This document shows positions 33,167-45,871 of a stretch of 45,957 nt of DNA, piece by piece; the first letter of the stretch is position 1; every line of letters begins with the position of its first letter. The position numbers and the translations under genes were made by a program. Origin of the DNA: Legionella drancourtii LLAP12 (GTDB taxonomy: Bacteria; Pseudomonadota; Gammaproteobacteria; Legionellales; Legionellaceae); the NCBI RefSeq assembly GCF_000162755.2, contig NZ_JH413817.1, forward strand, positions 32,639 to 78,595, written 5' to 3'. Below the pieces are notes generated by a model. It made no database searches and was not told the origin of the DNA. It was given only the letters and a program-made list of their open reading frames with translations.

Positions 33167-33253
33167 GCCCAGGTGGCGAAACAGGTAGACGCAAGGGACT
33201 TAAAATCCCTCGGTGGTAACACCATGCCGGTTCGATTCCGGCCCTGGGCACCA
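33167..33253 (+). tRNA. tRNA-Leu (TAA)
   Basis: An 87-base class II tRNA with a long variable arm (CGGTGGTAACACCA), anticodon TAA in CTTAAAATC, acceptor GCCCAGG/CCTGGGC and encoded CCA. It is the leuZ equivalent. Its 3' end from 33224 onward is duplicated at 43159, which marks it as the insertion site of the integrative element. Confidence 0.96.
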
Positions 33254-33396
33254 ATTACACATTTTGTAATGGTTCGCAAGAGTTCAAATTAGTACGTAAC
33301 TGATTGATAAATAATAAAATAACATCGACTTCTTCTTCTCAAATCGTTCTCAACTATTCGTAATTTTTCGCATATAACCGCGAGAACTTTGGGTAA
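33224..33396 (+). repeat. left attachment repeat (attL), 173 bp
   Basis: It begins inside tRNA-Leu (ATGCCGGTTCGATTCC) and runs to GGGTAA upstream of the integrase. It matches 43159-43227 with one mismatch and then 44988-45091 with roughly ten differences. The recombination core is most likely the tRNA 3' part. A hairpin ATTACA/TGTAAT follows the tRNA. Confidence 0.85.
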
Positions 33397-33462
33397 GATT
33401 TTGGGTAAAGTTTTTTCTTCTTCCAGTTCTTCCAAAGTTACCGCTTAGTTGAGGTAATTGCC

Positions 33463-34656
33463 ATGTTATCAGATTCACTAATCAGATCTTTAAAGCTAGG
33501 TGATAAAAAACGCCACACTGACCGTGATGGTTTAGTATTAGAACTTAGGCCAAGCAAGAAGCAACTTAAAAAAATATTTATTTTTCGTTTTCAGTGGGAT
33601 AAAAAACCGCAAACAATTACTATTGGTGATTATCGCAGTGTTGGTTTAGGAGCAGCTAGGGACATCGCTTTAGCTTATCGAAACATGGTTAACAGTGGGA
33701 TTGATCCTAGATCGAAAAATGTTGAAGCTGATCAAGAAAAAATAACCTTTGAAGTTGTTGCTGACCAATGGTTTCAAAAATACAAAGGTACGTGGAAAGA
33801 CTTTGCTCGTAATCGTCATTCCAAAAGCCTTTCACGAGATATCATTCCTTTAATTGGCGATAAACCCATTGACGATATAACAAAAGCTGATCTGTTATTT
33901 ATTATTAAACCGCATGAGGATTTAGGGCATCATGATGTGGCTCACCGACTTTATGCAAGACTCCAAAGTATATTTGAATTTGCAGTAGGTTCATCTCTTA
34001 CTGAAAACTTTCCATTCATCGGCTTGAAAAAAGCTTTAATACCTAAACCTAGGGTTATAAACCAGCCAGCTATTAGCTCAAATAATGCTCATGAGATGAT
34101 GAGGGTCATCAAACAAACTAATTCTACAAAAATTGTTAAGGTGTATATGGAATTGTTGGCACACCTATTCACACGACCCACAGAACTAAGAGAAGCAAAG
34201 TGGAGTGAGTTTGATTTGCAAAAATCTGAATGGAATATACCAGCGGAGCGAATGAAAATGGGGATACCTCACTGGGTTCCTTTAACTCCTCATGTTTTGA
34301 ACTTACTGAAAGAACTAAGACTGATAACTGGATTTACACCATATTTGTTTAGTTCACCTGCATTGAAAAAAGCTAAACCCATTAGTGAAGCAAGTGTACG
34401 TAAGCTCTTACATAATGCTGGTTTTAAAAATCGGCATACAGCCCATGGTTTTCGGTCGTTGGCTTCAAGTGTATTGCATGAGCAAGGGAATTTTAGAAGT
34501 GATGCTATAGAAGCTCAACTTGCACATAAGGTACAGGGAGTAAGAGGTGTATATTTACGTGCTGATTTTAAAGCTGAGCGGAGAGAACTAATGCATTGGT
34601 ACAGTAGTTGGTTATTGGATGAGCATATAACTTTATTAAATCAGGAGGTTATCTAA
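33463..34656 (+). CDS. tyrosine-type integrase
   Basis: This 397-residue P4-type integrase has an N-terminal DUF4102-like arm-binding domain (DSLIRSLKLGDKKRHTDRDG, ITIGDYRSVGLGAARDIAL), a core-binding SAM-like domain and a catalytic domain with Arg in FTRPTELREAKWSEFD, His-x-x-Arg in TAHGFRSLASSVLHE, a later His in QLAHK and the nucleophile Tyr in VRGVYLRA. It recombines the tRNA-Leu attachment site. A GGAGG near its 3' end serves the next gene. Confidence 0.95.
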   Translation: MLSDSLIRSLKLGDKKRHTDRDGLVLELRPSKKQLKKIFIFRFQWDKKPQTITIGDYRSVGLGAARDIALAYRNMVNSGIDPRSKNVEADQEKITFEVVADQWFQKYKGTWKDFARNRHSKSLSRDIIPLIGDKPIDDITKADLLFIIKPHEDLGHHDVAHRLYARLQSIFEFAVGSSLTENFPFIGLKKALIPKPRVINQPAISSNNAHEMMRVIKQTNSTKIVKVYMELLAHLFTRPTELREAKWSEFDLQKSEWNIPAERMKMGIPHWVPLTPHVLNLLKELRLITGFTPYLFSSPALKKAKPISEASVRKLLHNAGFKNRHTAHGFRSLASSVLHEQGNFRSDAIEAQLAHKVQGVRGVYLRADFKAERRELMHWYSSWLLDEHITLLNQEVI

Positions 34657-34657
34657 T

Positions 34658-35803
34658 ATGGATTCTAAAATTGATTCTCTTGCGCTTGCTTTAAAGCAAT
34701 CTTTTCTTGGCATATTCCCAAGAAGAACTCATATAGACGATTATGAAGAAGTGAAAGCAAGGATAAAAAAAGAATTGAAGATTGAATTAACTGTAAAAGA
34801 AATAAATCAAATCAGTTTTTTCGTCATCAGAAGTATTTTGGATGCTCAAAACCAAGACTCTTCACTTCAATGCGTTAATTCAGCTCAGGCAAAAACTATA
34901 GCGAGTAGTCACACGGCGCTACTAGAGGATCTTCAGTATGAAATTAGTCAAAAAATGGATAAAAATAGCGCTAATCAAGCAATAGGAATTGTTATTGAGG
35001 AAATGACTCAGTTTAAAAATCCAACAATATTTGTAAAAAATACCATCTCTTGGCGTTCTAAAATGGTTTGGGACGATAAAACATATGAATCTAAAAAATC
35101 ACAATTAGAATCCTTACTTAAAAGAGATCTATTAAAAGAAGAATTTTATTTGATTGCAGAAGCATGGTTTCACTATATGGTATTTGTCGAAGATCTACGC
35201 AGTCCTGATAATTATACTAAAGAAAAAATAAAAGAGTTAAGAACAACACTAATTGTCCGCATTGCTCATCTTGAAGGAGTAGTTAACTCAAGCAAGGAGA
35301 TTATTGATCAAGTCCGTGATATTGATCGTTTTCCTGAGATTGATATTGAGGCAGAAGAAAGAGGCCTATTAGATGCTCAAAGTAAATTAAATGAATCCAA
35401 GGCTCTTGCAGAACGTCTAAGACAAGATAACGGTTATGAATTAAGTATCAACCATATTCAAGAGAAGGCTTATTTTTCAGCGTTCTTTTTAGGGGAGCTA
35501 CTGGGTTTATTTGAGCCTGAATACAATAAAGATGGGAATCCTCTTCTAACATTTTTAGATATTTTAACAGGTTGGACTGATTCTCAAATGGATAAAGAGG
35601 GGACACGGAAACGGATTAGTAAAAATTACAGCAAATATAAGCAATTTAAATTAAATCCAAACACTAAACCCTTAATTGATGGTTTGTTAAGATGTCATCA
35701 AGAAGAAGGAGTCAGCTTAAATATTATTTTAAAAGAATTTCAGTCTCATTTGCTAAAATTATCTATTAAACCTCAGGCTCTGTCTATCGCTCCTGACGCT
35801 TAG
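34658..35803 (+). CDS. coiled-coil protein of the integrative element, unknown
   Basis: This 381-residue, mostly helical, Lys- and Glu-rich protein has no recognised domain. The region around residues 225-262 (IDIEAEERGLLDAQSKLNES) is a likely coiled coil, and a more globular part follows (AYFSAFFLGELLGLFEPEYN). The ATG is two bases after the integrase stop, with GGAGG inside the integrase gene, so it is cotranslated with int. Its position suggests a role in integration, excision or replication of the element. Confidence 0.7.
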   Translation: MDSKIDSLALALKQSFLGIFPRRTHIDDYEEVKARIKKELKIELTVKEINQISFFVIRSILDAQNQDSSLQCVNSAQAKTIASSHTALLEDLQYEISQKMDKNSANQAIGIVIEEMTQFKNPTIFVKNTISWRSKMVWDDKTYESKKSQLESLLKRDLLKEEFYLIAEAWFHYMVFVEDLRSPDNYTKEKIKELRTTLIVRIAHLEGVVNSSKEIIDQVRDIDRFPEIDIEAEERGLLDAQSKLNESKALAERLRQDNGYELSINHIQEKAYFSAFFLGELLGLFEPEYNKDGNPLLTFLDILTGWTDSQMDKEGTRKRISKNYSKYKQFKLNPNTKPLIDGLLRCHQEEGVSLNIILKEFQSHLLKLSIKPQALSIAPDA

Positions 35804-35918
35804 CTTAAAACTGCTATCGTCTGTAGCTTATTGCGACTCTTCAAAATAATTAACAATGCTCTTTACGGATCCTTGAGAACGATTCGTGAAGAGTTATTGT
35901 TATTTTTGGAGAGTAAAG

Positions 35919-36116
35919 ATGAAGGAAGAATCATTATTGTTATACCCCAAGCAGGTTCAAAAGCTTTTGGGCATAGGAACAACCAAATTTTATGAACTTA
36001 ATAAGTTGCCTGATTTTCCTAAGCCAAGAAACCCTCTTGGTAAACGTCCGATGTACCTTAGGAAAGAGATTGAGGAATGGACAGTAGGTTTAGAAATAGA
36101 GGTGAGCCATGATTAG
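35919..36116 (+). CDS. AlpA-family transcriptional regulator
   Basis: This 65-residue winged-helix DNA-binding protein of the AlpA/MerR-like excisionase group has LLLYPKQVQKLLGIGTTKFY, a turn, then FPKPRNPLGKRPMYLRKEIE and EW. The ATG at 35919 follows GGAGAG; the open frame upstream is not needed. AlpA proteins activate integrase or excision in P4-like elements and satellites. The region upstream has an inverted repeat ACTCTTC/GAAGAGT. Its end overlaps the primase gene by eight bases. Confidence 0.9.
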   Translation: MKEESLLLYPKQVQKLLGIGTTKFYELNKLPDFPKPRNPLGKRPMYLRKEIEEWTVGLEIEVSHD

Positions 36117-37014
36117 AGAGATTCAGGATGGTTGTTACAGCGACTTTCAAATTATAGCTGCTGAAGCAAATTATATTGAAAAATGCCCAACAAAAAATGA
36201 AGAAAGGATGTTCATAATCATGCAAGAAGTTAGTATTTATTGTGATCGTGGCTGGGCTGTTCACCCACTTAATAAGAAAAAGCGACCATTATTAAAAGGC
36301 TGGCAAGAGAACGCGACAACTAACCCCAACATATTTATGCAATGGCTTCAAAAATGGCCATGGGCAAATGTGGGGATCGTTACTGGTAATATTAGCAATT
36401 TGTTGATATTGGATGTTGACGGAGGGGAGGGTATAAATAGTCTTCGTGGTTTGGATTTACCAGTTTCCCCTATTGTCGTTACTGCACGAGGCCACCATTA
36501 TTATTTTAATTGTCCATCTATTTTAAGCAATGTTTCCACAACGCGCTCCGGATTATTATCTAATGTAGATACGCGAGGCAGGGGAGGTTATATAACTGCT
36601 CCTCCATCAATTCATGAGACTGGACATCAATATTACTGGAGTGAGCCATTAGATGGAGATCTCCCTGATGCTCCAGAGTGGCTTATACAACGGCTACTCC
36701 CGCCAGTAAAAATCTCTTACAAAATGCCTATTTTTATTGATAGGACTACTTCTCATTATGCTCGAACTGCTCTGCTGAATGAAACTACAGCCCTTGCAGC
36801 AGCACCTCCAGGCACCCGTAATATGCGTCTTAACCAAGCTGCTTTCTCTATGGGTACATTGGTAGCATCAGGTTGTATAGAAATTAATTTTGTCGCTGAA
36901 GCCTTAGCTAGGTCAGCTCTGAGTGCAGGATTGCGTGAGAATGAGATTAAAAAAACGCTATCTAGTGGGTTATCTGCCGGAATGCTTCATCCTCGGGAGG
37001 TTTCTCATGGATAA
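36109..37014 (+). CDS. bifunctional primase-polymerase (AEP family)
   Basis: This protein of 301 residues (or about 264 if it starts at the ATG at 36220) has an archaeo-eukaryotic primase-polymerase domain: RGWAVHPLNKKKRPLLKGWQ, the metal-binding LLILDVDGGEG, the His in ARGHHYYF, and VDTRGRGGYITAPPSIHETG. GAGGTGAG precedes the first ATG. Together with the ATPase downstream it should start replication of the element. It overlaps the next gene by eight bases. Confidence 0.9.
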   Translation: MIREIQDGCYSDFQIIAAEANYIEKCPTKNEERMFIIMQEVSIYCDRGWAVHPLNKKKRPLLKGWQENATTNPNIFMQWLQKWPWANVGIVTGNISNLLILDVDGGEGINSLRGLDLPVSPIVVTARGHHYYFNCPSILSNVSTTRSGLLSNVDTRGRGGYITAPPSIHETGHQYYWSEPLDGDLPDAPEWLIQRLLPPVKISYKMPIFIDRTTSHYARTALLNETTALAAAPPGTRNMRLNQAAFSMGTLVASGCIEINFVAEALARSALSAGLRENEIKKTLSSGLSAGMLHPREVSHG

Positions 37015-38539
37015 TATTAATAATTTAATTGATATGGCAGTTAGTGATGCAAAGACTAACGATTATATTGATATTGTAATGACAGCATTATCCGAGCTTA
37101 AGAGTAATGCAGGAGCAATTTTTGAGGAGCCAGTATTACTTGCATTAATGGCTATTAGAGAGAGTAGTCCTGCTGAATGGCAGCGTGCTCGTGCTCTCAT
37201 GAAAGAAGAGAAAGTGCAGTTATCTGAGATAGATCGCCTCACGATGGCAAAAAGTTCTAACCATAATGAAACATCAATTATATTTCCTGATGAAACGCTT
37301 TGGCCAAGCATGGTTAATGGTGCTCACCTGCTAGATGATATCGTGTGTTTTATCAATACTCATATTGTAGCTGAGCCTGAAACCGCTCAAGCTGCTGCAT
37401 TATGGATTGTGTTTACATGGTTAACTGATGTTGTGAATGTTGCTCCTCTCGTAAATATTACCGCGCCAGAAAAAAGGTGTGGTAAATCAGAGATGTTGGC
37501 TATTTTAGGTTTGCTTGTTTATCGTCCTCTTCTTGCTGCAAATATGGGATCTGCTCCTATGTTTAGGCTGATTGATCAATACCATCCAACATTACTTATA
37601 GATGAAGTAGACACCTTTTTATCATTACATGATGACATGCGCGGAATTTTAAATGCTGGCTTTACTCGGTCAGCTTCTTTTGTCTATCGCTGTGTTGGCG
37701 ATCATCATGGTGTAAAGCAATTTTCAGTATGGGGAGCAAAAGCCCTGTGTGGAATTGGTGGAGTGGATAAATTGCCAACATTGTCTGATCGCAGCATACC
37801 AATTCGACTCCGTAGAAAATTAAAAGGAGAAAAATCGGTAAAAGTTCGACACCATGATCAGCAATTAGTTGCTATCTTGCGTCAACAATTAGCAAGGTTT
37901 ACTCAAGATGCTAAGAATGATATCCGTTCTTATCAATCAATAGATATTCCTGAATTGAATGATCGTGCTAATGATTGTTGGGAGCCATTATTTGCCATAG
38001 CAAGCATAGCCGGAGGCAATTGGCCAAAAATAGCAAGAAGTGCAGCTATCATCCTTCATGGCATGGAAGAATATGTCCCTACCATTGGTGAGCAATTATT
38101 ATGCTCTGTAAAAGATGTATTTGAACAAAAAGGTTGTGATCGGATAAAAACAACTGATTTATTAGATGCATTAGCTATGGACGACGAATTACCTTGGGCA
38201 ACTTGGAATAAAGGTAAATTGATGACCCCTTATCAATTAGGTAAACGTTTATCTGAATACGGGATTAGAAGTGGCACTGTCAGGTTTGGTACAAAGACAG
38301 CCAAAGGATTCAAACTTGAGCAATTTACAGAGGTATTTGATCGTTATCTTGCTAGTGATGCAGTAGTTGAAACAGTAACATCGTCACAACTCTTACCACA
38401 ACAGGGTTTTATGAGCTTTGAGAAAGGTAACAAAGAAAATAATGTTACGAACTTAAGTACGTTAAAACCCATATCAACTATTGAATGTGACGATGTTACG
38501 GAGTCTTTACCAGAGATCATTGATGGGGAGGTATTCTAG
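37007..38539 (+). CDS. DUF3631-domain ATPase/helicase of the integrative element
   Basis: The ATG at 37007 overlaps the primase end, giving 510 residues. A central P-loop domain has NITAPEKRCGKSEMLAILG (Walker A, with Ser for the usual Thr) and TLLIDEVDTFL (Walker B). It continues into the DUF3631 region (LSDRSIPIRLRRK, RANDCWEPLFAIASIAGG). Such proteins pair with primase-polymerases in plasmids, phages and satellites and are thought to act as the replicative helicase or initiator. The stop shares its last base with the GTG of the next gene. Confidence 0.9.
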   Translation: MDNINNLIDMAVSDAKTNDYIDIVMTALSELKSNAGAIFEEPVLLALMAIRESSPAEWQRARALMKEEKVQLSEIDRLTMAKSSNHNETSIIFPDETLWPSMVNGAHLLDDIVCFINTHIVAEPETAQAAALWIVFTWLTDVVNVAPLVNITAPEKRCGKSEMLAILGLLVYRPLLAANMGSAPMFRLIDQYHPTLLIDEVDTFLSLHDDMRGILNAGFTRSASFVYRCVGDHHGVKQFSVWGAKALCGIGGVDKLPTLSDRSIPIRLRRKLKGEKSVKVRHHDQQLVAILRQQLARFTQDAKNDIRSYQSIDIPELNDRANDCWEPLFAIASIAGGNWPKIARSAAIILHGMEEYVPTIGEQLLCSVKDVFEQKGCDRIKTTDLLDALAMDDELPWATWNKGKLMTPYQLGKRLSEYGIRSGTVRFGTKTAKGFKLEQFTEVFDRYLASDAVVETVTSSQLLPQQGFMSFEKGNKENNVTNLSTLKPISTIECDDVTESLPEIIDGEVF

Positions 38540-38895
38540 TGGTTATCACGGAGCTAATCCAACATCTACAAGACTCTGGTGTTTCATTATCATTTTTTAA
38601 TGGAACAATTATCGCAAAACCAAAGGATTGTTTAACTGACTCGACTCGAAACCAGATAATTATCCATAAAAAACCGCTGCTTGTGTATTTTCAGGTAGAA
38701 TCGGCTTGCAAGGGCATGAATATTTCTCCATCACACATTATAAATCATCTTCTATCTATTGAGGATGAAGCTGATTTAATTAATGGCGACTTGCCTGAAA
38801 TAGCGTTAAAATTACACATTGAGCTTTGGATGGCAAAAGGTATGCCTCATTATTCGGGCAAGCCCGAATTGAAAATCGATCAGGGAGAAAAGTAA
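38539..38895 (+). CDS. TubC N-terminal docking-domain-like small protein
   Basis: This 118-residue protein starts at GTG overlapping the ATPase stop. The first 55 residues (ITELIQHLQDSGVSLSFFNG through IIIHKKPLLVYF) match the TubC_N-like fold often encoded beside primase/DUF3631 genes in mobile elements. The rest is polar and helical. It is probably a replication accessory; the exact role is unknown. Confidence 0.75.
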   Translation: MVITELIQHLQDSGVSLSFFNGTIIAKPKDCLTDSTRNQIIIHKKPLLVYFQVESACKGMNISPSHIINHLLSIEDEADLINGDLPEIALKLHIELWMAKGMPHYSGKPELKIDQGEK

Positions 38896-38896
38896 A

Positions 38897-39364
38897 ATGA
38901 CTGTACTTAAGCAAGGTAGGCCAACAAAATATAACCTCAAGTTAGGCCAAGAAATTTGTGATGCTATTGCATCGACCAGTAAGGGCACAAAGAAGTTATG
39001 TGCGGAACATTCACATTGGCCTTGCCAAGATACTTTATTCACATGGTTGAGAACTTATCCTGAGTTTTCCGAGCAATACGTAAAGGCGAAAATATGCCAA
39101 GTTGAACTATTAGTGGACGATATTTTGGAGATTTCTGATGACGCATCTCAAGATCAATATGTTAATGAGCGAGGGGTATTAGTATCAAACACTCAATCCA
39201 TAAACAGGGCAAGGTTAATGATAGATGCAAGGAAATGGGTGGCTTGTAAGCTTGTGCCAAAGGTATATGGTAATAAAATTGACATTGAAAGCAATAGCAG
39301 CATGTCAGAGGAGCTACGACAGTTAAGTGCCGATCTTGATGCTAAGTATACGCGCGATTATTAG
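38897..39364 (+). CDS. phage terminase small subunit
   Basis: This 155-residue protein has an N-terminal helix-turn-helix (GRPTKYNLKLGQEICDAIAS, CQDTLFTWLRTYPEF) and the helical oligomerisation region ILEISDDASQDQYVNERG, then INRARLMIDARKWVACKLVPKVYG, the pattern of the Sf6-type small terminase family. It would recognise pac DNA for packaging. No large subunit is present, so it would have to work with a helper phage's TerL. GGGAGAAAAG precedes the ATG. Confidence 0.9.
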   Translation: MTVLKQGRPTKYNLKLGQEICDAIASTSKGTKKLCAEHSHWPCQDTLFTWLRTYPEFSEQYVKAKICQVELLVDDILEISDDASQDQYVNERGVLVSNTQSINRARLMIDARKWVACKLVPKVYGNKIDIESNSSMSEELRQLSADLDAKYTRDY

Positions 39365-39396
39365 ACTCATTGGTTAGGTAACTAAGGTGAAACTGA

Positions 39397-39594
39397 TTAA
39401 TTTGAATTACATTTTTCAATTTTCATGCAGTGACAATAACTTTTATCTTGGTTTATGTTGCTCTCTCTATCAGAGGGATGTAATGTAAACCAGATGTAAC
39501 TTAATAAAGACATAACGGATAAAAATATTAAGAACCAAAGTTTTCTATTCAGCGATCGAGATGACTTCCTCATATCAATCAAATCGTTGCTCAT
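39397..39594 (-). CDS. possible small membrane protein
   Basis: This 65-residue ORF has one clear membrane helix (LWFLIFLSVMSLLSYIWFTL) flanked by a basic N-terminus and a cysteine-containing tail. It is oriented against the terminase gene and in the same direction as the XRE regulator. The ribosome binding site is poor, so it may be spurious. Confidence 0.35.
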   Translation of the reverse strand: MSNDLIDMRKSSRSLNRKLWFLIFLSVMSLLSYIWFTLHPSDRESNINQDKSYCHCMKIEKCNSN

Positions 39595-39669
39595 AATGAC
39601 TTCATGAAACTAAATTTTAATTATACAAGATATACGTTAGAAGCATAGAACGACGAATCGGTATTTTTG

Positions 39670-39906
39670 TTAAATGTTCTTAAAACTTTCGATGGGAGGA
39701 AATAGCTCGCCTACTTCCACGTTAAGCGCTTGAGCAATTTTAATTAAATTAAGAGCAGCTATATTCCTTTCGCCACGTTCTACACTACCCATATAACTGC
39801 GGTCTACCCCTGATTCAGAGGCAAAAGCTTCTTGAGAGAAGCCATGTGCTTTGCGCATTTCTCGAATTTTATTACCTAATTTTAGGAGTTGAGGGTCTTT
39901 TTTCAT
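39670..39906 (-). CDS. XRE-family transcriptional regulator
   Basis: This 78-residue helix-turn-helix protein (LGNKIREMRKAHGFSQEAFA, ESGVDRSYMGSVERGERN, LNLIKIAQALNVEVGELF) has the size and pattern of restriction-modification controller (C) proteins. It is divergent from the zinc-ribbon nuclease gene across a 228-bp gap and likely sets its expression and its own. Confidence 0.88.
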   Translation of the reverse strand: MKKDPQLLKLGNKIREMRKAHGFSQEAFASESGVDRSYMGSVERGERNIAALNLIKIAQALNVEVGELFPPIESFKNI

Positions 39907-40134
39907 GTTTGATAATTTAAGGCAAAGGTGATAATGTAACCACGGACTATGAGTACCATTTTTTATGTTCTAGTCATAAGGGGAAGGTTTTTGTTATCGT
40001 TTCGTCTCAAATTTGTAGGGATTCAAATAAGTACTTCACAGGAAGAGAGTTAACCGATCATTGGTCATAGTGAGCCGTTGATATACTGAAAATCCTTCGA
40101 TTAGTTAAATTAATCATTAATTACTAAGTGAAGT

Positions 40135-41319
40135 ATGAAAATAAACTCATTAGCAGAAAAAGCCCCTCATTTAATCGAGGAATGGCATAAGAGCAAAAAC
40201 GTCCTAACACCCGACGAGGTTTCATACTCGTCGAATAAAAAATACTGGTGGCTTTGTAAAAAAGGTCACGAATGGGAGGCTGCTGTAGGGAATCGATATC
40301 GAGGAACAGGATGTCCAGTTTGCGGTGGCAGGAAATTGTCTCCGGAGAATAATTTAGCAGTTAAATGCCCTCATTTGCTCAAGGAATGGCATCCAACTAA
40401 GAATGGTACTTTAACTCCATTTGATGTAACTCCCAGAGGAAGAAATATAATATGGTGGCTGTGTGAAAAAGGTCATGAATGGCCAGCTACAACAGGGAAC
40501 AGATATATGGGTACAGGATGCCCTCATTGTGATGGAAGAATAGCTACGCCAGAATATAATCTTGCTATTAAAAGTCACCAATTAGCCCAAGAATGGCATA
40601 TAGAGAAAAACAGCCCTTTAACACCTTTTGAAGTTACACCAAATAGTCAAAAAAGAGTCTGGTGGCGGTGTGAGAAAGGTCATGAATGGCCAACTAGTAT
40701 TGCTGCTAGGTTTAAAGGAACTAATTGCCCTTACTGTGCGGGTAAAAAACCTTCTGCAGAATATAACCTTGCAGTAAAATGTCCTCATTTAATTTCAGAA
40801 TGGCATGTGGAAAAAAACAAGCCACTTACTCCTGACAACATAACTCCTGGTTCTAAAAAAAGAGTATGGTGGCAATGTGCATATCAACATGAATGGCCAG
40901 CTGCTGTATATACGAGAGTAAATGGTCATAATTGCCCAAAGTGCAATATTCGGACTTCTCGTCTTGAAATTAGAATTTATTGTGAATTAAAAAGCATCTT
41001 TGAAGATGTATTGTGGCAAGAAAAAATTCATACGAAAGAAATCGATGTCTACATTCCCCACCTTACACTAGGGATTGAGGTAGATGGCTTTTATTGGCAC
41101 CAGAGCGATGAAAGAAAAAAGGCTGATAATGCCAAGCAAATTTTACTTGGTAATAATGGGATTACTTTAATTCGTGTTATGGATGATCGATTGGAAGTAA
41201 ACGAAAGTAACTCCATTCCTTATGTAAATAACGGCAATCCTCTCACTGTTATTGTTAATGTCTTAACCTTTATAAGGAGGACATTGGAGCTGCCTAAAAT
41301 TGATGCAAAAAAAAATTGA
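40135..41319 (+). CDS. zinc-ribbon (DUF4379) repeat protein with Vsr-like nuclease domain
   Basis: Four repeats of about 68 residues each carry EWH....LTP...WW.C..GHEW...C..C zinc-ligand sets (Cys41/His45/Cys60/Cys63; 110/114/129/132; 179/183/198/201; 248/252/267/270). Residues 276-355 form a PD-(D/E)XK-type domain: EIDVYIP (Asp304), then LGIEVDGFYWHQ (Glu315, Asp317, His322) and LIRVMDD, like Vsr mismatch endonucleases. It is probably a DNA-cutting defence protein that reads DNA through the ribbons. The gene stops in an A9 run; removing one A fuses it to the next ORF for a 558-residue product, so this is likely one gene split by a frameshift. Confidence 0.85.
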   Translation: MKINSLAEKAPHLIEEWHKSKNVLTPDEVSYSSNKKYWWLCKKGHEWEAAVGNRYRGTGCPVCGGRKLSPENNLAVKCPHLLKEWHPTKNGTLTPFDVTPRGRNIIWWLCEKGHEWPATTGNRYMGTGCPHCDGRIATPEYNLAIKSHQLAQEWHIEKNSPLTPFEVTPNSQKRVWWRCEKGHEWPTSIAARFKGTNCPYCAGKKPSAEYNLAVKCPHLISEWHVEKNKPLTPDNITPGSKKRVWWQCAYQHEWPAAVYTRVNGHNCPKCNIRTSRLEIRIYCELKSIFEDVLWQEKIHTKEIDVYIPHLTLGIEVDGFYWHQSDERKKADNAKQILLGNNGITLIRVMDDRLEVNESNSIPYVNNGNPLTVIVNVLTFIRRTLELPKIDAKKN

Positions 41320-41812
41320 TGAGTATATAAGTGCAAATGAATATCAAAGTGAGGGGGAGTACAATGCAATTATAACCGCTCTCCCTAGCCCCTTAATAAA
41401 AAGTTCTATTGCAGGGAATCCAGATTTACTTAAAGAATGGCATCCCAATAAAAACAGTTATCAGCCAACACAGTTATCCTATGGTTCAAAAATCAAAGTT
41501 TGGTGGCAATGTGGGAAGATGCATGAATGGGAAGCAACCCCAAATAGCAGAACCCGACCACAAGGCACAGGCTGTCCCTATTGTAATGGGAAACAACCAA
41601 CCCATGATAATAATTTGGCGGTACAAAGTCCGGAGTTAGTTAAGGAATGGCATCCAGAGAAGAATAACGAACTTAGACCAGAGATGTTTCTACCCAGGAG
41701 TAATAAAAAAGTCTGGTGGTTGTGCAAATATTTACATGAATGGCAAGCCACCATTGATAATCGATTCAATGGAACAAATTGTCCAGTCTGCTGGAGTTCT
41801 AAGAGTAGCTAA
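41303..41812 (+). CDS. zinc-ribbon (DUF4379) protein, probably the 3' part of the preceding gene
   Basis: This 169-residue ORF has two more zinc-ribbon repeats (LLKEWHPNKN, VWWQCGKMHEWEA, GCPYC; LVKEWHPEKN, VWWLCKYLHEWQA, NCPVC) after a linker (ITALPSPLIKSSIAG). It overlaps the nuclease ORF by 17 bases in the +1 frame. There is no ribosome binding site fitted to this start, and across the A9 run the sequence reads naturally as a continuation (LPKIDAKKIDEYISANEY). It is likely the C-terminal part of one long protein. Confidence 0.75.
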   Translation: MQKKIDEYISANEYQSEGEYNAIITALPSPLIKSSIAGNPDLLKEWHPNKNSYQPTQLSYGSKIKVWWQCGKMHEWEATPNSRTRPQGTGCPYCNGKQPTHDNNLAVQSPELVKEWHPEKNNELRPEMFLPRSNKKVWWLCKYLHEWQATIDNRFNGTNCPVCWSSKSS

Positions 41813-42490
41813 GCTGTAAGCTTACTCTCGCTGTTTCACTATACAGCAAGTGAGTATGCATGAGTTTTAGAGGGGGTATGCCCCGTGACAGAGCCTACCC
41901 CTTCACTAATATGGAGCCTCAGCCCTTTTCATAACTGGAGCTATTTTTCTAGTAATTTTTCGAAGGTATGCTTATCCATGAATACTTTAAGAGGTTTGAT
42001 CTGAGTTTAAATCGTGTTGAAAGGTCTTAATTTTAAATAGAAAGCGATAAAAATCTAATTTTTTTATCGAATAAAATCAATGGAGTATATAGTTTAACTT
42101 AGGAAATTCTTGATAAAACATTGACCATCGTGTATACTTAAAGTGTAGGGAATACTAATTATACGCTGTAGGGCTGTACTATAAATAAATTAAATAAGAG
42201 TCTAAAAATTTCAAATTACCGCGGATCCTTGTTGCAATGGATATCCGCTGTTTCTGTTTTGTCCATTTCAAAAACTTTGTTATATTTTTTTCTAAAAACT
42301 AATAATCAATTTTTAATAAGGAGGAAATTTATGGAAACATAAAATTAATTATTATAGGTTAGATTGTTTAATTATAATGCAAAGTGATTATAACCTTCTT
42401 TCCTATATGAGTCAAATCGTTTCGAAGAATTGATGAGGAAAATTCAATATCTTCGTTATTTAAGCAAGCCAACATATCGAGAGAGTAGTG
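41813..42490. other. AT-rich intergenic region with promoter and hairpins
   Basis: No gene is convincing in these 678 bases. A stem-loop (TACTC, GCTGT / ACAGC, GAGTA; 41823-41856) follows the zinc-ribbon gene. A second one with AGGGGGTA/TACCCCT arms lies at about 41876-41907. A promoter at 42110-42138, a bulged hairpin at 42221-42248 and a ribosome binding site with a three-codon ORF (ATG GAA ACA TAA, 42331-42342) lie further right. Confidence 0.5.
42110..42138 (+). promoter_or_regulatory. sigma-70-like promoter upstream of the WYL-like gene
   Basis: TTGATA (42110-42115) and TATACT (42133-42138) are exactly 17 bases apart. The start site would be near 42145, about 345 bases before the WYL-like gene. 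A bulged hairpin with 11 pairs (GCGGATCC..GGATATCCGC, 42221-42248) followed by a T-rich stretch could end a short RNA of about 110 bases. Confidence 0.5.
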
Positions 42491-42865
42491 ATGATAGATA
42501 TTATTATTGAAGCAATAAAAAACCAAAATACAATTTCTTTTTCTTACAATGGTCAGAGAAAAGTAGTAGAGCCTCATCATTTTGGAGTCTTTGGCACTAA
42601 TGATCAAATACATGGATATCAGATTAAATCTGGATTTTCGAACACAGGTTGGAGAAATTTTATTGTATCCTCTATGCAAGATATCTCTATAAATTCTTCT
42701 GTATTTACACCTCAAAGTGACTATAACCCTAGTGGTTCAAGGTATTCTAATATATATATTTCTGTTTTAGATCCTATAATAAATGACCCTAATGACCCTA
42801 ATGACCCTAATGACCCTAATGACCCTAATGACCCTAATGACCCTAATGACCCTAATGACCCTTAA
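42491..42865 (+). CDS. WYL-like domain protein with C-terminal (NDP)n repeats
   Basis: The first 95 residues resemble a lone WYL domain: EAIKNQNTISFSYNGQRKVV, EPHHFGVFG, IHGYQIKSGFSNTGWRNF. WYL domains sense ligands, often nucleotides or nucleic-acid ends, in regulators of phage-defence systems. The C-terminus is nine Asn-Asp-Pro units encoded by a perfect 9-bp repeat. One extra T at 42863 then makes a TAA stop. Without it the frame would run through eight more units to Phe-Gln-Pro-stop at 42947, giving 151 residues. There is no DNA-binding domain, so it may act with a partner. Confidence 0.65.
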   Translation: MIDIIIEAIKNQNTISFSYNGQRKVVEPHHFGVFGTNDQIHGYQIKSGFSNTGWRNFIVSSMQDISINSSVFTPQSDYNPSGSRYSNIYISVLDPIINDPNDPNDPNDPNDPNDPNDPNDPNDP

Positions 42866-42935
42866 TGACCCTAATGACCCTAATGACCCTAATGACCCTA
42901 ATGACCCTAATGACCCTAATGACCCTAATGACCCT
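42782..42935 (+). repeat. 9-bp minisatellite (AATGACCCT), 9 + 8 units
   Basis: Nine perfect units (42782-42862) are followed by a single inserted T (42863) and eight more perfect units (42864-42935). The array encodes Asn-Asp-Pro. Unit gain or loss is frame-neutral, but the inserted T ends the reading frame, so the array can switch the length of the C-terminus. Confidence 0.95.
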
Positions 42936-43095
42936 TTTCAGCCATAAAAATTAATTTATCTATGGAATAAGATATATAATTTATTGTTGGAATTTCGATC
43001 TATGGGGATCTTGATCAATAATTAGCAAGATCTCTAAAATTAATTTTATTCGTAACTTTTCTTAATCATTCAAATTAGTTATCATACTCAAAGTT

Positions 43096-43113
43096 GGGTA
43101 AGATTTTGGGTAA
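43096..43113 (+). repeat. copy of the int-proximal GGGTAAGATTTTGGGTAA repeat
   Basis: The same 18 bases occur at 33391-33408 just upstream of the integrase. The two copies lie near opposite ends of the element in the same orientation. They may be integrase arm sites or excisionase sites; this is inference. Confidence 0.5.
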
Positions 43114-43158
43114 GCTTCGAGTCCATATTATTTTAGTTAAATAAAATCAATAAGTTAT

Positions 43159-43227
43159 ATGCCGGTTCGATTCCGGCCCTGGGCACCAATTACACATTTT
43201 GTAATTGTTCGCAAGAGTTCAAATTAG
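43159..43227 (+). repeat. right attachment repeat (attR), first part
   Basis: Sixty-nine bases match 33224-33292 with one mismatch and include the tRNA-Leu 3' end with CCA. It is interrupted by the IS66-type element and continues at 44988. The last eight bases, CAAATTAG, form the left target duplication. Confidence 0.9.
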
Positions 43228-44979
43228 GTAACTTCTCAATAAGTTGTGGCAGGAAGCTTAATTGATGATCGAACTAACTCATCTAAATGAGGAATAGAAT
43301 ACGACTGGAAGGTTCTATCAATAAGATAGTCCCAAAATTTAACTCCCATTTTCAAAGCTGTTTTCTTGAGACTAGCAAAGGTATCACGACATCGCCGTCC
43401 CTCATCGCTTCGGGTAGAGCCGCTGATTTTACGTCGTGTAACATATTCACGAATATCTCGCTCACTTAAATTATTATGGAGAGGTATGTCAGGGCGCTCC
43501 AGTACAAGGAGCAATTCTTCTTTGTTATTATGCAATCGCTTAAGTGCTTGATTAAGCAGTTGATAGTGAGTCTTTGTAGCACATAATTTATCGAATCGAT
43601 TTGTTATTTCTGTCTTAGCGGCCAAAGTAGGGACTGACTTATAATCACGTAGAGCTTGATAAATAGCCCATAGTTCGTTTCGAGCCCATCCTACTGCTTG
43701 TGTTTGAGTATCGGTACTCATGCTTAACGATTTAATTCCCCTCTCAGCATGAATCCAGCATAGTGCATGATTGAATACATTAAATTGTCCTGCATCATCG
43801 CTTATGATAACGGTATCTATTGAAAACCCGCGATTTAAAATGCTGCCAATCAATGCTGCTTCAATCACTAACCTTTGGTAATGCTCATTGGTAATGTCTA
43901 ATGCATTGAGGTGGCACTTTAAATCCTGTTCACTGATGAAGTGAGATTGGTCGGCATCATGGAGTTTGTGGCGTATCCACGGTGCTACCTTATAGCGTAC
44001 CATATAGGCATAAGACTCTTCAGTTAACCGATAATCTTTATGCCTTCCTCGCAATAATTCAAGGAAATTAATTCGACTCTTGCTTCCTGTGCTCTCAAAC
44101 CAGCTAAAAAGCTCATTCCCAATGAAAGTGCAATACCCACTTTTTCCTTGATGGCGTGCTCCTGTATCGTCAACCTGGATGTAACTTGACACCGCAATAT
44201 CTGCCGGTAAAAGAGCAGCCTTTTCTTGATGAAATGACTCTTTATCTTCCGTTAATAAACGATTTAATTGACCAGATGAAATATCAATGTCCCATTCCAA
44301 TAATTGTTTACGTAATAGAGGTTGTGTAACCCTTTGATGATGATGTTGATGGAGCACATAAGCTCTTAAGGTTGGGCCAAAATGATGCCCTCTTACTTCT
44401 TTGGGCAACGGTGCTGTAATTATACGACCATTAGGTAATTCCCAACGCTCCAATAAATATCGGGTCACTATAGGCTGCAGTCTGATATCTTGGACAACAT
44501 AGGATTGATATCCCTTATGACGGGAACCCAATGGAACACTCTTTACTTTTATCGTTTCTTCTTTATCTATCTTCAGTTGATTAGTCTTACTGCGTTTTGA
44601 TGATCCAGCACGTTTTCTTGTCCCTCCTGCTCCCGGTGGCTCATTATCTTTATCGTCTTTATTCTTCTCTAAAGTACTTGCTCGAAGCTTCGGTTTCTTA
44701 CTCAATTTCTTTAGGCTGCGAATTTCTTCTAGTAGCGCATTAATTTTGGTGTTCTGCTCGGCTAATTGCTGTGTTAATTGCTCTATCACCGTGAGCAAAG
44801 AGGTCACCAAAGGCGTTCGCTCTGTCTCTGGTACGATATTTGATTTCAATGGTATGGGGCGTTTTTTCATAACCAATAGTATAAGCCCTCCTCATCAATA
44901 AGAAGATGAGATTTTTCTTATTTATCTTTGATCTTTTGCTTGGTTTATGCTTAGTTGCCACAACTTATTGAGAAGTTAC
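43228..44979 (-). mobile_element. IS66-family element (transposase-only, ISBst12-like)
   Basis: This 1752-bp element has 23-bp perfect terminal inverted repeats starting GTAACTTCTCAATAAG (43228-43250 and 44957-44979). Target duplications are CAAATTAG (43220-43227) and CTAATTAG (44980-44987), 7 of 8 identical, the 8-bp size expected for IS66. It carries one transposase gene without the accessory tnpA and tnpB. It splits the right attachment repeat. The perfect ends suggest a fairly recent insertion. Confidence 0.92.
43236..44870 (-). CDS. IS66-family transposase
   Basis: This transposase is 544 residues from the ATG at 44870 (a TTG two codons upstream is also possible). It has an N-terminal leucine-zipper-like helix (VIEQLTQQLAEQNTKINALL), a DDE catalytic domain with YIQVDDTGARHQGKSGYC and the later IISDDAGQFNVFNHALCWIH, and the C-terminal Glu motif in PLHNNLSERDIREYV. 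The stop codon lies inside the left inverted repeat. It appears intact. Confidence 0.93.
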   Translation of the reverse strand: MKKRPIPLKSNIVPETERTPLVTSLLTVIEQLTQQLAEQNTKINALLEEIRSLKKLSKKPKLRASTLEKNKDDKDNEPPGAGGTRKRAGSSKRSKTNQLKIDKEETIKVKSVPLGSRHKGYQSYVVQDIRLQPIVTRYLLERWELPNGRIITAPLPKEVRGHHFGPTLRAYVLHQHHHQRVTQPLLRKQLLEWDIDISSGQLNRLLTEDKESFHQEKAALLPADIAVSSYIQVDDTGARHQGKSGYCTFIGNELFSWFESTGSKSRINFLELLRGRHKDYRLTEESYAYMVRYKVAPWIRHKLHDADQSHFISEQDLKCHLNALDITNEHYQRLVIEAALIGSILNRGFSIDTVIISDDAGQFNVFNHALCWIHAERGIKSLSMSTDTQTQAVGWARNELWAIYQALRDYKSVPTLAAKTEITNRFDKLCATKTHYQLLNQALKRLHNNKEELLLVLERPDIPLHNNLSERDIREYVTRRKISGSTRSDEGRRCRDTFASLKKTALKMGVKFWDYLIDRTFQSYSIPHLDELVRSSIKLPATTY

Positions 44980-44987
44980 CTAATTAG

Positions 44988-45091
44988 TACGTAACTGATT
45001 GATTTATAATAAAATAACATAGACTTTCCCCTCTCAAATCGTTCTCAACTATTCGTTAATTTTCGCATATAACCGCGAGAACTTTGGGTAA
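44988..45091 (+). repeat. right attachment repeat, second part
   Basis: These 104 bases continue the match to 33293-33396 after the IS66 insertion, with about ten differences (for example GATAAATAAT against GATTTATAAT). Similarity ends where the intact element leads into its integrase, suggesting the left edge of a second, now disrupted, related element. Confidence 0.8.
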
Positions 45092-45196
45092 TATTTTTGT
45101 AACCTCCTCGTCTAAGCAACCATCCATAATCTTTTATAAAACATCAAGATAGTGTATTGTCCGCATCAATTTTTACGGAGTAGCTGAGTTTTAAGG

Positions 45197-45871
45197 ATGG
45201 GCAAAGCGATAAAAGTGGTTATAACGCAAGAACAAAAACAAACACTGCTAAAACTAAGAAGTTCGCGAGCGGGAAAAAATATAGGGGAGCGAGCGTATTA
45301 TGTTTTACTATCCTCATCAGGCAAAAGTATAGGTGAGATATCAACACAATTGGGTCGTAATCCACACACGGTGAGATGTTGGATAAAACGTTATTTACGT
45401 TTTGGCATTTCAGGATTAATAGATAAAAGTTCAAGCGGTCGACCTAATCAATTGAGAGAAAAAGTCAAGGAAGAGCTCAACCAACTGCTAAGTGCATCAC
45501 CTAAGGAATACGGTTACCAACAGTCTGGATGGCAAATTAATCTTCTATTAGATCAATTGACTAAAGCGGTTGGATCTGTGAGTGCCACAACAGTAAAGCG
45601 AGCGCTTCATGAGCATGGATGGGTATATAAACGATTTTCTAAAAAGCCCCCACTGAATGCGCCGAGTAAAGAAGACAAAGCAGCTTATATTGAAAAAATG
45701 GTTGCATCGCTAAGTAAACAAAAGTTGGAGCATGAAATAGAAATATTATTTGCAGATGAGTCTCACTTCTCAAACGAACCCTATGTAGAGAGAGGTTGGT
45801 TTAAACGTGGCGAAAAAAAATCCATCCACACCAACAAAAAAAGCTTCGTACACGACAATTTTTTAATTTAG
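45197..45871 (+). pseudogene. IS630-family transposase, truncated
   Basis: The 224-residue frame has the IS630 helix-turn-helix N-terminus (GKSIGEISTQLGRNPHTVRC, WIKRYLRFGISGL) and the first catalytic Asp in ILFADESHFSNEPYVERGWF. The second and third acidic residues are missing because the frame ends at 45871 in KSFVHDNFLI, about 120 residues short. The sequence after it looks like the left end of another insertion sequence, which probably caused the truncation. Confidence 0.8.

Follow-up and report, generated by a model that had tools for sequence, protein, structure and literature searches.

The window analysed here is a 45,957-nt stretch of Legionella drancourtii LLAP12 (contig NZ_JH413817.1, positions 32,639 to 78,595), and it contains a 9.9-kb island integrated at a tRNA-Leu gene. 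The island carries the row int-orf2-alpA-PrimPol-DUF3631-TubC-terS plus cargo, and is flanked by copies of the 3' end of tRNA-Leu(UAA). From its gene content, we consider it probable that the island is a phage satellite of the phage-inducible chromosomal island (PICI) type with its own small terminase subunit (TerS). The C-terminal tail of this TerS is of a kind that in phages follows one family of large terminase subunit (TerL), which leads us to predict that the satellite docks its TerS on the TerL of P22-like podophages.

An island with a small terminase and no recognised structural genes

Gene families in the window were called with Pfam and PHROGs profile searches, and tRNAs with ARAGORN. 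tRNA-Gly, tRNA-Cys and tRNA-Leu(TAA) are followed by a compact rightward gene row. An earlier note, made from the letters of the window alone, had named an integrase, AlpA, a primase-polymerase, a DUF3631 ATPase, a TubC-like protein and a small terminase, and all of these are present by Pfam or PHROGs matches. The matches are strong for the integrase, Prim-Pol, DUF3631 and TerS, the last scoring 103.3 bits against a curated PF20901 cut-off of 27, and barely over cut-off for AlpA and TubC_N. The motifs NITAPEKRCGK and LLIDEVD, presumably the Walker motifs, are invariant in an alignment of five DUF3631 proteins. Missing from the list in the note were orf2, a divergent pair of genes for a 65-aa protein and an Xre-type regulator, and the cargo.

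The genes overlap as the note had described. The row is packed head to tail, with neighbours 1 nt apart (int/orf2 and TubC/TerS), sharing one base (DUF3631/TubC) or overlapping (AlpA/PrimPol and PrimPol/DUF3631). Searches of the window genes with Pfam and PHROGs recognised no capsid, portal, large-terminase, coat, lysis or tail gene in the island, in agreement with the claim that structural genes are lacking.

Related elements across the Legionellaceae

Of 143 Legionellaceae genomes, 30 have a match to the TerS family PF20901, which in 29 of them exceeds the cut-off. All 143 match the tRNA region of the window, at best with 93% identity (G085; G and L numbers are our handles for genomes and loci), and seven match its DUF3631 protein, two of them by short and weak matches. 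L006, from a Legionellaceae metagenome-assembled genome, encodes the nearest DUF3631 protein (92% identity). The locus set comprised 30 TerS loci and the loci of G051, G113 and G124, whose open reading frames (ORFs) were clustered with those of the window, L006 and L007; L061 is a repeat of L006, and L062, L063 and two weak TerS places (G023 and G039:C10) lie outside the set.

The TerS cluster has 33 ORFs, the window's included. A primase/helicase-type gene lies within 1.6 kb of 25 of them, 20 share their locus with an integrase, and the loci include an AlpA-type gene in 13 cases, a TubC-type gene in 10 and an Xre gene in seven. The kind of replication gene varies: PrimPol with DUF3631 (window, L006), DUF3987 (L104), DUF5906 (L115), Toprim with AAA (L093) and DUF7146-Toprim (L111), plus three more kinds, represented by L096, L095 and L107, with PHROG primase matches. 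The L096 type is matched by PHROGs primases and by nothing in Pfam. TerL and portal clusters stand beside TerS in only two cases, L114 and L116, both of them phage loci that have P22-type portals, and six loci were left without a type (L099, L102, L108, L119, L120 and L122). TubC was considered as a packaging partner of TerS, and its presence in 10 of 33 loci leaves that undecided. A small ORF follows DUF3631 in the capsid-bearing IMG/VR contigs L001-L003 too; the L001 copy has no Pfam match, so its homology to TubC is not established.

Nine elements, with that of the window, are bounded by attachment (att) repeats and measure 8.4-12.9 kb from repeat to repeat. The other eight have exact att repeats of 25-72 nt at tRNA-Leu(CAG), tRNA-Leu(CAA) or tRNA-Asn, and L105, L107 and L112 adjoin tmRNA. 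No structural family is among the matches listed (25 of 31 Pfam and 25 of 44 PHROG families) for 49 of the 74 non-backbone ORFs in the nine elements. The earlier note had named beforehand what would speak against a satellite: a lack of both excision and homologous elements elsewhere, or large-terminase and capsid genes within the same element. Homologous elements do exist and no such gene was recognised in the island, which supports the satellite label as far as sequence allows. The recurrence of similar gene rows, att repeats and arm repeats in other Legionellaceae shows that the layout is more than chance.

The tail of TerS and the TerL family of the helper

TerS is under purifying selection. 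The pairwise ratio of nonsynonymous to synonymous substitution rates (dN/dS; NG86 method) is 0.14 against L006 and 0.06-0.08 against L112, L103 and L111, the latter values being rough at dS above 1.5; it is 0.11 for the integrase and 0.17 for DUF3631. On a TerS tree, 29 Legionellaceae rows stand apart from six phage records with support of 99/99. Grouped with the satellite rows are also three of phage type, L114, L116 and L119; two of these sit on long branches, and their position is unsure.

The TerS alignment has one conserved body and at least four kinds of C-terminal tail. The window tail defines class 1; class 2, GVTDPNEAARIY, occurs in L096, L099, L100 and L104, class 3, which is SLMERL-like, in L095, L106, L101, L093 and L108, and class 4 in L113 and L115. 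The L104 protein combines a body that groups with L059 (96/95) and a tail of the L096/L099/L100 kind. For P22, TerS residues 140-162 are described as binding TerL residues 1-58 (PMC9611059).

For phage TerS from IMG/VR, we used a tail score derived solely from the class-1 satellite tails, and this score replaced hand-made tail patterns. With TerL-A denoting the family of the L114 TerL, scores of 25 or more were reached by 30 of 43 phage TerS with TerL-A, 0 of 26 with TerL-B and 4 of 70 without an assigned TerL. The split between TerL-A and TerL-B gives p values, kinship ignored, of 1.2e-9 (Fisher), 2.2e-10 (rank test) and 1.6e-9 (local-alignment rank test). It persists inside a single TerS-body cluster (60 TerS, linked at 50% identity), where the tail reaches 25 in 25 of 35 TerL-A and 0 of 25 TerL-B cases, and shuffled tails did so in 4 of 1380 cases.

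TerS bodies do not explain this split. As a whole, the window body is closer to TerL-B phages (median scores of 270 versus 242 for TerL-A), and the mean of every satellite TerS body is higher for TerL-B, with best single scores going either way. Because the class-1 tail follows TerL-A in phages and the bodies do not, we predict a TerL-A helper for the window satellite. The tailed helper phage proposed in the earlier note gains support here, since tails of this kind are seen in phages that have the same TerL family as L114 and L116. For the other classes, a class-3 tail score of 25 or more was found in 7 of 26 TerL-B and 0 of 43 TerL-A phage TerS (local-alignment rank test, p 0.077), and class 2 has one similar phage tail (L371), which has no assigned TerL.

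More generally, the last ~20 residues of TerS could be a helper-specificity cassette, with the phage tail rather than the body following the TerL family; we judge the chances of this to be even. If it is true, L104 is a natural tail exchange, satellites switch helper by swapping a short TerS tail, and the phages that infect a host can be read from the tails of its uncultured satellites, here P22-like podophages of Legionellaceae.

Candidate helpers are found in few of the genomes. The L114 TerL is 100% identical in G131, 61% identical in G027 and G129, and matched more weakly in G049 (38-39%), which makes four of 143 genomes; TerL-B occurs in G027 only (1e-10) and P22_portal in G027, G129 and G131. 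IMG/VR has 55 loci encoding a relative of the L114 TerL. Since no genome with a satellite-type TerS has TerL-A or TerL-B at 1e-10, an incoming phage or one residing as a prophage in another strain is, as far as these two TerL families show, a likelier helper than a resident one. As a probe for Legionellaceae prophages, phrog_2 (matches in 49 of 143 genomes, two below 1e-10) was replaced by P22_portal and the L114 TerL.

A proposed satellite cycle and its alternatives

In the cycle that we propose, the integrase would excise the element at the tRNA-Leu 3'-end copies, acting through the paired TTGGGTAA arm sites seen at both ends; AlpA would serve as directionality factor or activator, and orf2 may take part. 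To judge from their families, PrimPol and the DUF3631 ATPase would replicate the circle, probably into concatemers. The TerS body would recognise a pac-like sequence of the satellite itself, while the C-terminal tail, given its statistical match to TerL, would dock on the TerL of an infecting P22-like podophage, and this helper would then fill heads with satellite DNA. The particle would bring the element to a new cell for integration at tRNA-Leu, along with cargo that in some relatives includes phage defence and from which the new host may benefit.

Several observations weigh against this proposal. The tail score misses 13 of the 43 TerL-A phage TerS and is reached by 4 of the 70 without an assigned TerL; the threshold of 25 was picked after the scores had been seen, although the rank tests agree, and all of the tests ignore kinship. 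At 1e-10, TerL-A and TerL-B are confined to four genomes and one genome, respectively, none of which has a satellite-type TerS. The AlpA and TubC calls are near cut-off, and an AlpA-type cluster is present in just 13 of 33 loci, where ORF tables may miss small ORFs. Parts of this copy are decaying, as only an end survives of the second element and the cargo gene is in two pieces. Finally, an ORF with NDP repeats matches the capsid decoration protein PhiKZ_gp35 at 15.4 bits against a cut-off of 35, which we take as a repeat artefact.

Docking of the tail on TerL would serve equally well a phage-defence island whose TerS is a decoy, blocking packaging by the helper TerL, and which moves by natural transformation or generalised transduction. 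The defence-type genes beside relatives (AbiEi/AbiEii, Dsr1-like, IetS, type IIG and PD-T7-3; six of ten chosen proteins) are consistent with this. However, the integrase, replication genes and att sites have all been kept, and purifying selection has preserved the conserved TerS body with its N-terminal region, a full body that a decoy would not need. We consider a pure decoy unlikely, and the two jobs are in any case compatible, as the Rpp protein of Gram-negative PICIs is described as doing both (PMC6739421).

The signs of decay in this copy, together with the insertion sequence (IS) elements that crowd the island end, could instead point to a prophage in decay, stripped of structural genes and left with TerS by chance. 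This reading is hard to reconcile with compact integrase-primase/helicase-TerS rows that recur in many genomes without TerL or portal clusters, with TerS dN/dS values of 0.06-0.14, or with the separation of Legionellaceae TerS from the six phage records on the tree, and we give it hardly any credence.

An origin from a capsid-forming PICI (cf-PICI) that lost its head genes and retained TerS alone seems to us very unlikely. cf-PICIs carry capsid genes, and the IMG/VR contigs L001-L003, whose DUF3631 proteins are 44-47% identical to that of the window, do bear them, either as a prohead protease and capsid or as a capsid, a small ORF in the TerS position and TerL. In contrast, none was recognised in the window, whose element has TerS only, and none of the nine att-bounded elements has a head gene among the 49 of 74 non-backbone ORFs scanned. 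The packaging genes of these contigs also belong to different kinds: the L002 ORF in the TerS position is 16% identical to the window TerS and has no Pfam match, and that of L001 matches Terminase_7/4 below cut-off. Two of these capsid-bearing relatives also share an ORF (L002:1991-2605 and L003:8870-9466; the L002 copy has no Pfam match) that we assume to resemble the lambda tail-assembly protein.

Relation to known elements

A PICI-type satellite remains our preferred reading, and the Gram-negative PICIs as described in PMC6092414 share with the island an integrase, an AlpA regulator, a replication module, sometimes terS, accessory genes, rightward transcription and the absence of structural and lytic genes. 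The window has the integrase, replication module and AlpA (barely over cut-off) in the conserved order. It differs from the PICIs of that paper in its tRNA att sites, PrimPol plus DUF3631, and Sf6-type TerS with different tails, and at 9.9 kb is smaller than the 12-15 kb given there as typical, which is not a strict limit. The PICI description also includes a unique att site that prophages never use; tRNA-Leu(TAA) is used by related elements. Because induction and packaging are predictions here, we call the island PICI-like by gene content rather than a proven PICI.

The phage-inducible chromosomal minimalist islands (PICMIs) of Vibrionaceae, as described in PMC10803314, resemble the island in having, in this order, int, usually an int-adjacent gene (iolg), alpA and a primase, and in lacking capsid-remodelling genes. 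Both primases of the PICMI model there, DUF3987 and DUF5906, occur in Legionellaceae relatives (L104 and L115). In the PICMI model, the site is fis and gene content is minimal, whereas the Legionellaceae elements sit in tRNA or tmRNA genes and have terS and cargo; the main text of PMC10803314 does not contain the word terminase. P22/Sf6-like podophages share with the island the TerS family PF20901 and the tail kind, and their TerL-A partner and P22_portal are found in G131, G027 and G129; in contrast to them, no gene for TerL, portal, coat or lysis was recognised in the island. LME-1 of Legionella pneumophila is likewise an integrating Legionella mobile element with a short att site, but its site as described is a palindrome of 22 nt, and the words satellite, integrase and terminase are absent from the main text (PMC5071653).

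TerS-carrying satellites as such are already described (PMC6092414), in a main text from which the word Legionella is absent. Among the open PubMed Central (PMC) papers searched, none has Legionella together with phage satellite or phage-inducible chromosomal island in its title or abstract, and none joins DUF3631 with a satellite. As far as these papers show, the Legionellaceae satellite family and the tail/TerL rule are new.

The authors of a 2022 review are aware of no Legionella phage isolation after 2008 and state that enrichments of earlier isolates do not exist; the review cites two studies for Legionella phages being very rare (PMC9333994). A family of TerS-carrying satellites across the Legionellaceae would mean that these bacteria have met tailed phages repeatedly and over a long time, and some Legionellaceae islands also bear anti-phage genes. 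The tails would point to a definite kind of phage, with P22-type portals and TerL of the TerL-A family. The question of which phages infect Legionella thereby becomes addressable by sequence data, and satellites of other hosts could be examined with the tail rule.

As a separate observation, the 16-kb Pseudomonas 'phage' vB_Pae_U1 (PP003913; L005) is annotated with an integrase, cox, a primase and Rhs but nothing structural. What was deposited as a phage may thus be a satellite.

Island ends and a second, tandem element

The earlier note had placed the island in tRNA-Leu at 33224..43227. The left end, the tRNA and the repeat were correct, while the right boundary lay beyond the true end, a second, tandem element having been overlooked. 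A 69-nt direct repeat (33224-33292 and 43159-43227) is 99% identical, and the whole of it was considered as the att core; this reading was dropped in view of the left end of the second element and of two tRNA-Leu sites, L177 and L178, in which no element was detected. Homology to these two sites ends at 33255, and in L168, a relative with both ends, the distal att copy matches 33229-33255 only. By these comparisons, the att core is about 32 nt, 33224-33255.

The second left end runs from 43191, past an IS66 element, to 45097, and the island is by this evidence the left member of a former tandem pair, the second member of which has been lost beyond its end. The IS66 (43228-44979) has a transposase gene and inverted ends and sits inside the second left end, with 8-bp flanks (CAAATTAG/CTAATTAG) alike in seven of eight bases. 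A transposase ORF that we take to be IS630-like directly follows the remnant (45197-45871; HTH_32 over cut-off, DDE_3 below).

Eight elements at three tRNA-Leu genes, and the remnant L175 too, have the arm repeat TTGGGTAA-N4-TTGGGTAA at both ends. Such paired repeats are as expected for integrase arm sites. L175 itself, 1.8 kb long and located at tRNA-Leu(TAA), retains arm repeats and part of an integrase, and its distal att copy is again followed by a left-end copy (84%), a second tandem case.

Table 1. Features of the island and its borders in the window
Feature	Position	Strand	Basis
tRNA-Leu (anticodon TAA), integration target, intact at left end	33167..33253	+	ARAGORN
attL core, tRNA 3' end	33224..33255		Repeat; limit of L177/L178 homology
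Left arm-type repeat TTGGGTAAGATTTTGGGTAA, putative integrase arm site	33389..33408	+	Motif at both ends of eight elements and remnant L175
Tyrosine integrase	33463..34656	+	PF22022/PF13356/PF00589, phrog_1
orf2, function unassigned; in the iolg position of PICMIs (int-alpA gap)	34658..35803	+	ORF; PICMI order as described in PMC10803314
AlpA-type regulator/excisionase	35913..36116	+	PF05930 6.4e-5, 23.2 bits (cut-off 21)
Primase-polymerase (Prim-Pol)	36109..37014	+	PF09250 9.2e-37
DUF3631 P-loop ATPase, helicase-like; GTG ORF, in-frame ATG at 37007	36923..38539	+	PF12307 8.1e-45
TubC_N-like small protein in helicase-TerS gap	38539..38895	+	PF18563 5e-6, 27.0 bits (cut-off 26)
Sf6-type small terminase TerS; class-1 tail is last ~20 residues	38897..39364	+	PF20901 8.9e-30, phrog_1482 8.4e-31
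65-aa protein, one hydrophobic stretch	39397..39594	-	ORF; Xre neighbour in L107 and L112 too
Xre/Cro-type helix-turn-helix regulator, divergent	39670..39906	-	PF01381 1.2e-14
Cargo: four DUF4379 zinc fingers, weak restriction-endonuclease-like domain	40135..41319	+	PF14311 3.3e-78; PF18741 9e-6, below cut-off
Second piece of same cargo gene, two DUF4379	41300..41812	+	One ORF in L107; window split near residue 393
Short WYL-like ORF, NDP repeats at its end	42488..42865	+	WYL and PhiKZ_gp35 matches, both below cut-off
Right arm-type repeat	43094..43113	+	Repeat comparison
attR core/junction with second element	43159..43190		Repeat
Start of left end of second, tandem element	43191..43227		Repeat
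Second left end, resumed after IS66	44980..45097		44982-45097 91% identical to 33287-33402

Cargo and minor features

Ten cargo proteins were picked by hand for comparison with PADLOC models, so the six that match, all at 2.5e-25 or better, give no rate. They are AbiEi and AbiEii (L060), a Dsr1-like protein (L059), IetS (L112, adjoining an AAA ATPase), a type IIG restriction enzyme (L105) and PD-T7-3 (L111). In neither L105 nor L112 was a right element end found. The AbiEi/AbiEii pair (L060:13841-15375) adjoins the right att of a satellite at tRNA-Leu(CAG).

The DUF4379 gene of the window has only a weak homing-endonuclease match (0.003). The row of 65-aa protein, Xre and DUF4379 gene recurs in L107 and L112, where DUF4379 is a single ORF of 563 and 558 aa, respectively. 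No family was found for the 65-aa protein in Pfam and PADLOC scans, and orf2 has only chance-level matches in Pfam and PHROGs (0.044 or weaker). Near the right end, the 9-bp unit AATGACCCT occurs 17 times at 42782-42935 and codes for the NDP repeats up to a point where a single additional base puts it out of frame. A role of this array as origin iterons is unsupported, the array being present only in the window among the loci compared.

Other elements at tRNA-Leu(TAA)

In other Legionellaceae, tRNA-Leu(TAA) is occupied by elements with integrases 70-87% identical over their full length, several of them with AlpA. The window TerS has no match in 18 tRNA-Leu(TAA) stretches, although several of these are short or cut off by a contig end. 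The slot after the replication genes holds a TerS-like protein in L172 (phrog_4102, 5.6e-9) and, weakly, in L165 (phrog_9231, 1.1e-4). DUF5681 proteins follow the replication genes in L168 and in L164, a stretch in which no integrase was found; that these proteins serve packaging is a guess. One tRNA-Leu(TAA) stretch, L174, comes from G001, the genome of L006, on a contig that does not join that of L006, and the nearest relative of the window element may therefore sit at the same tRNA.

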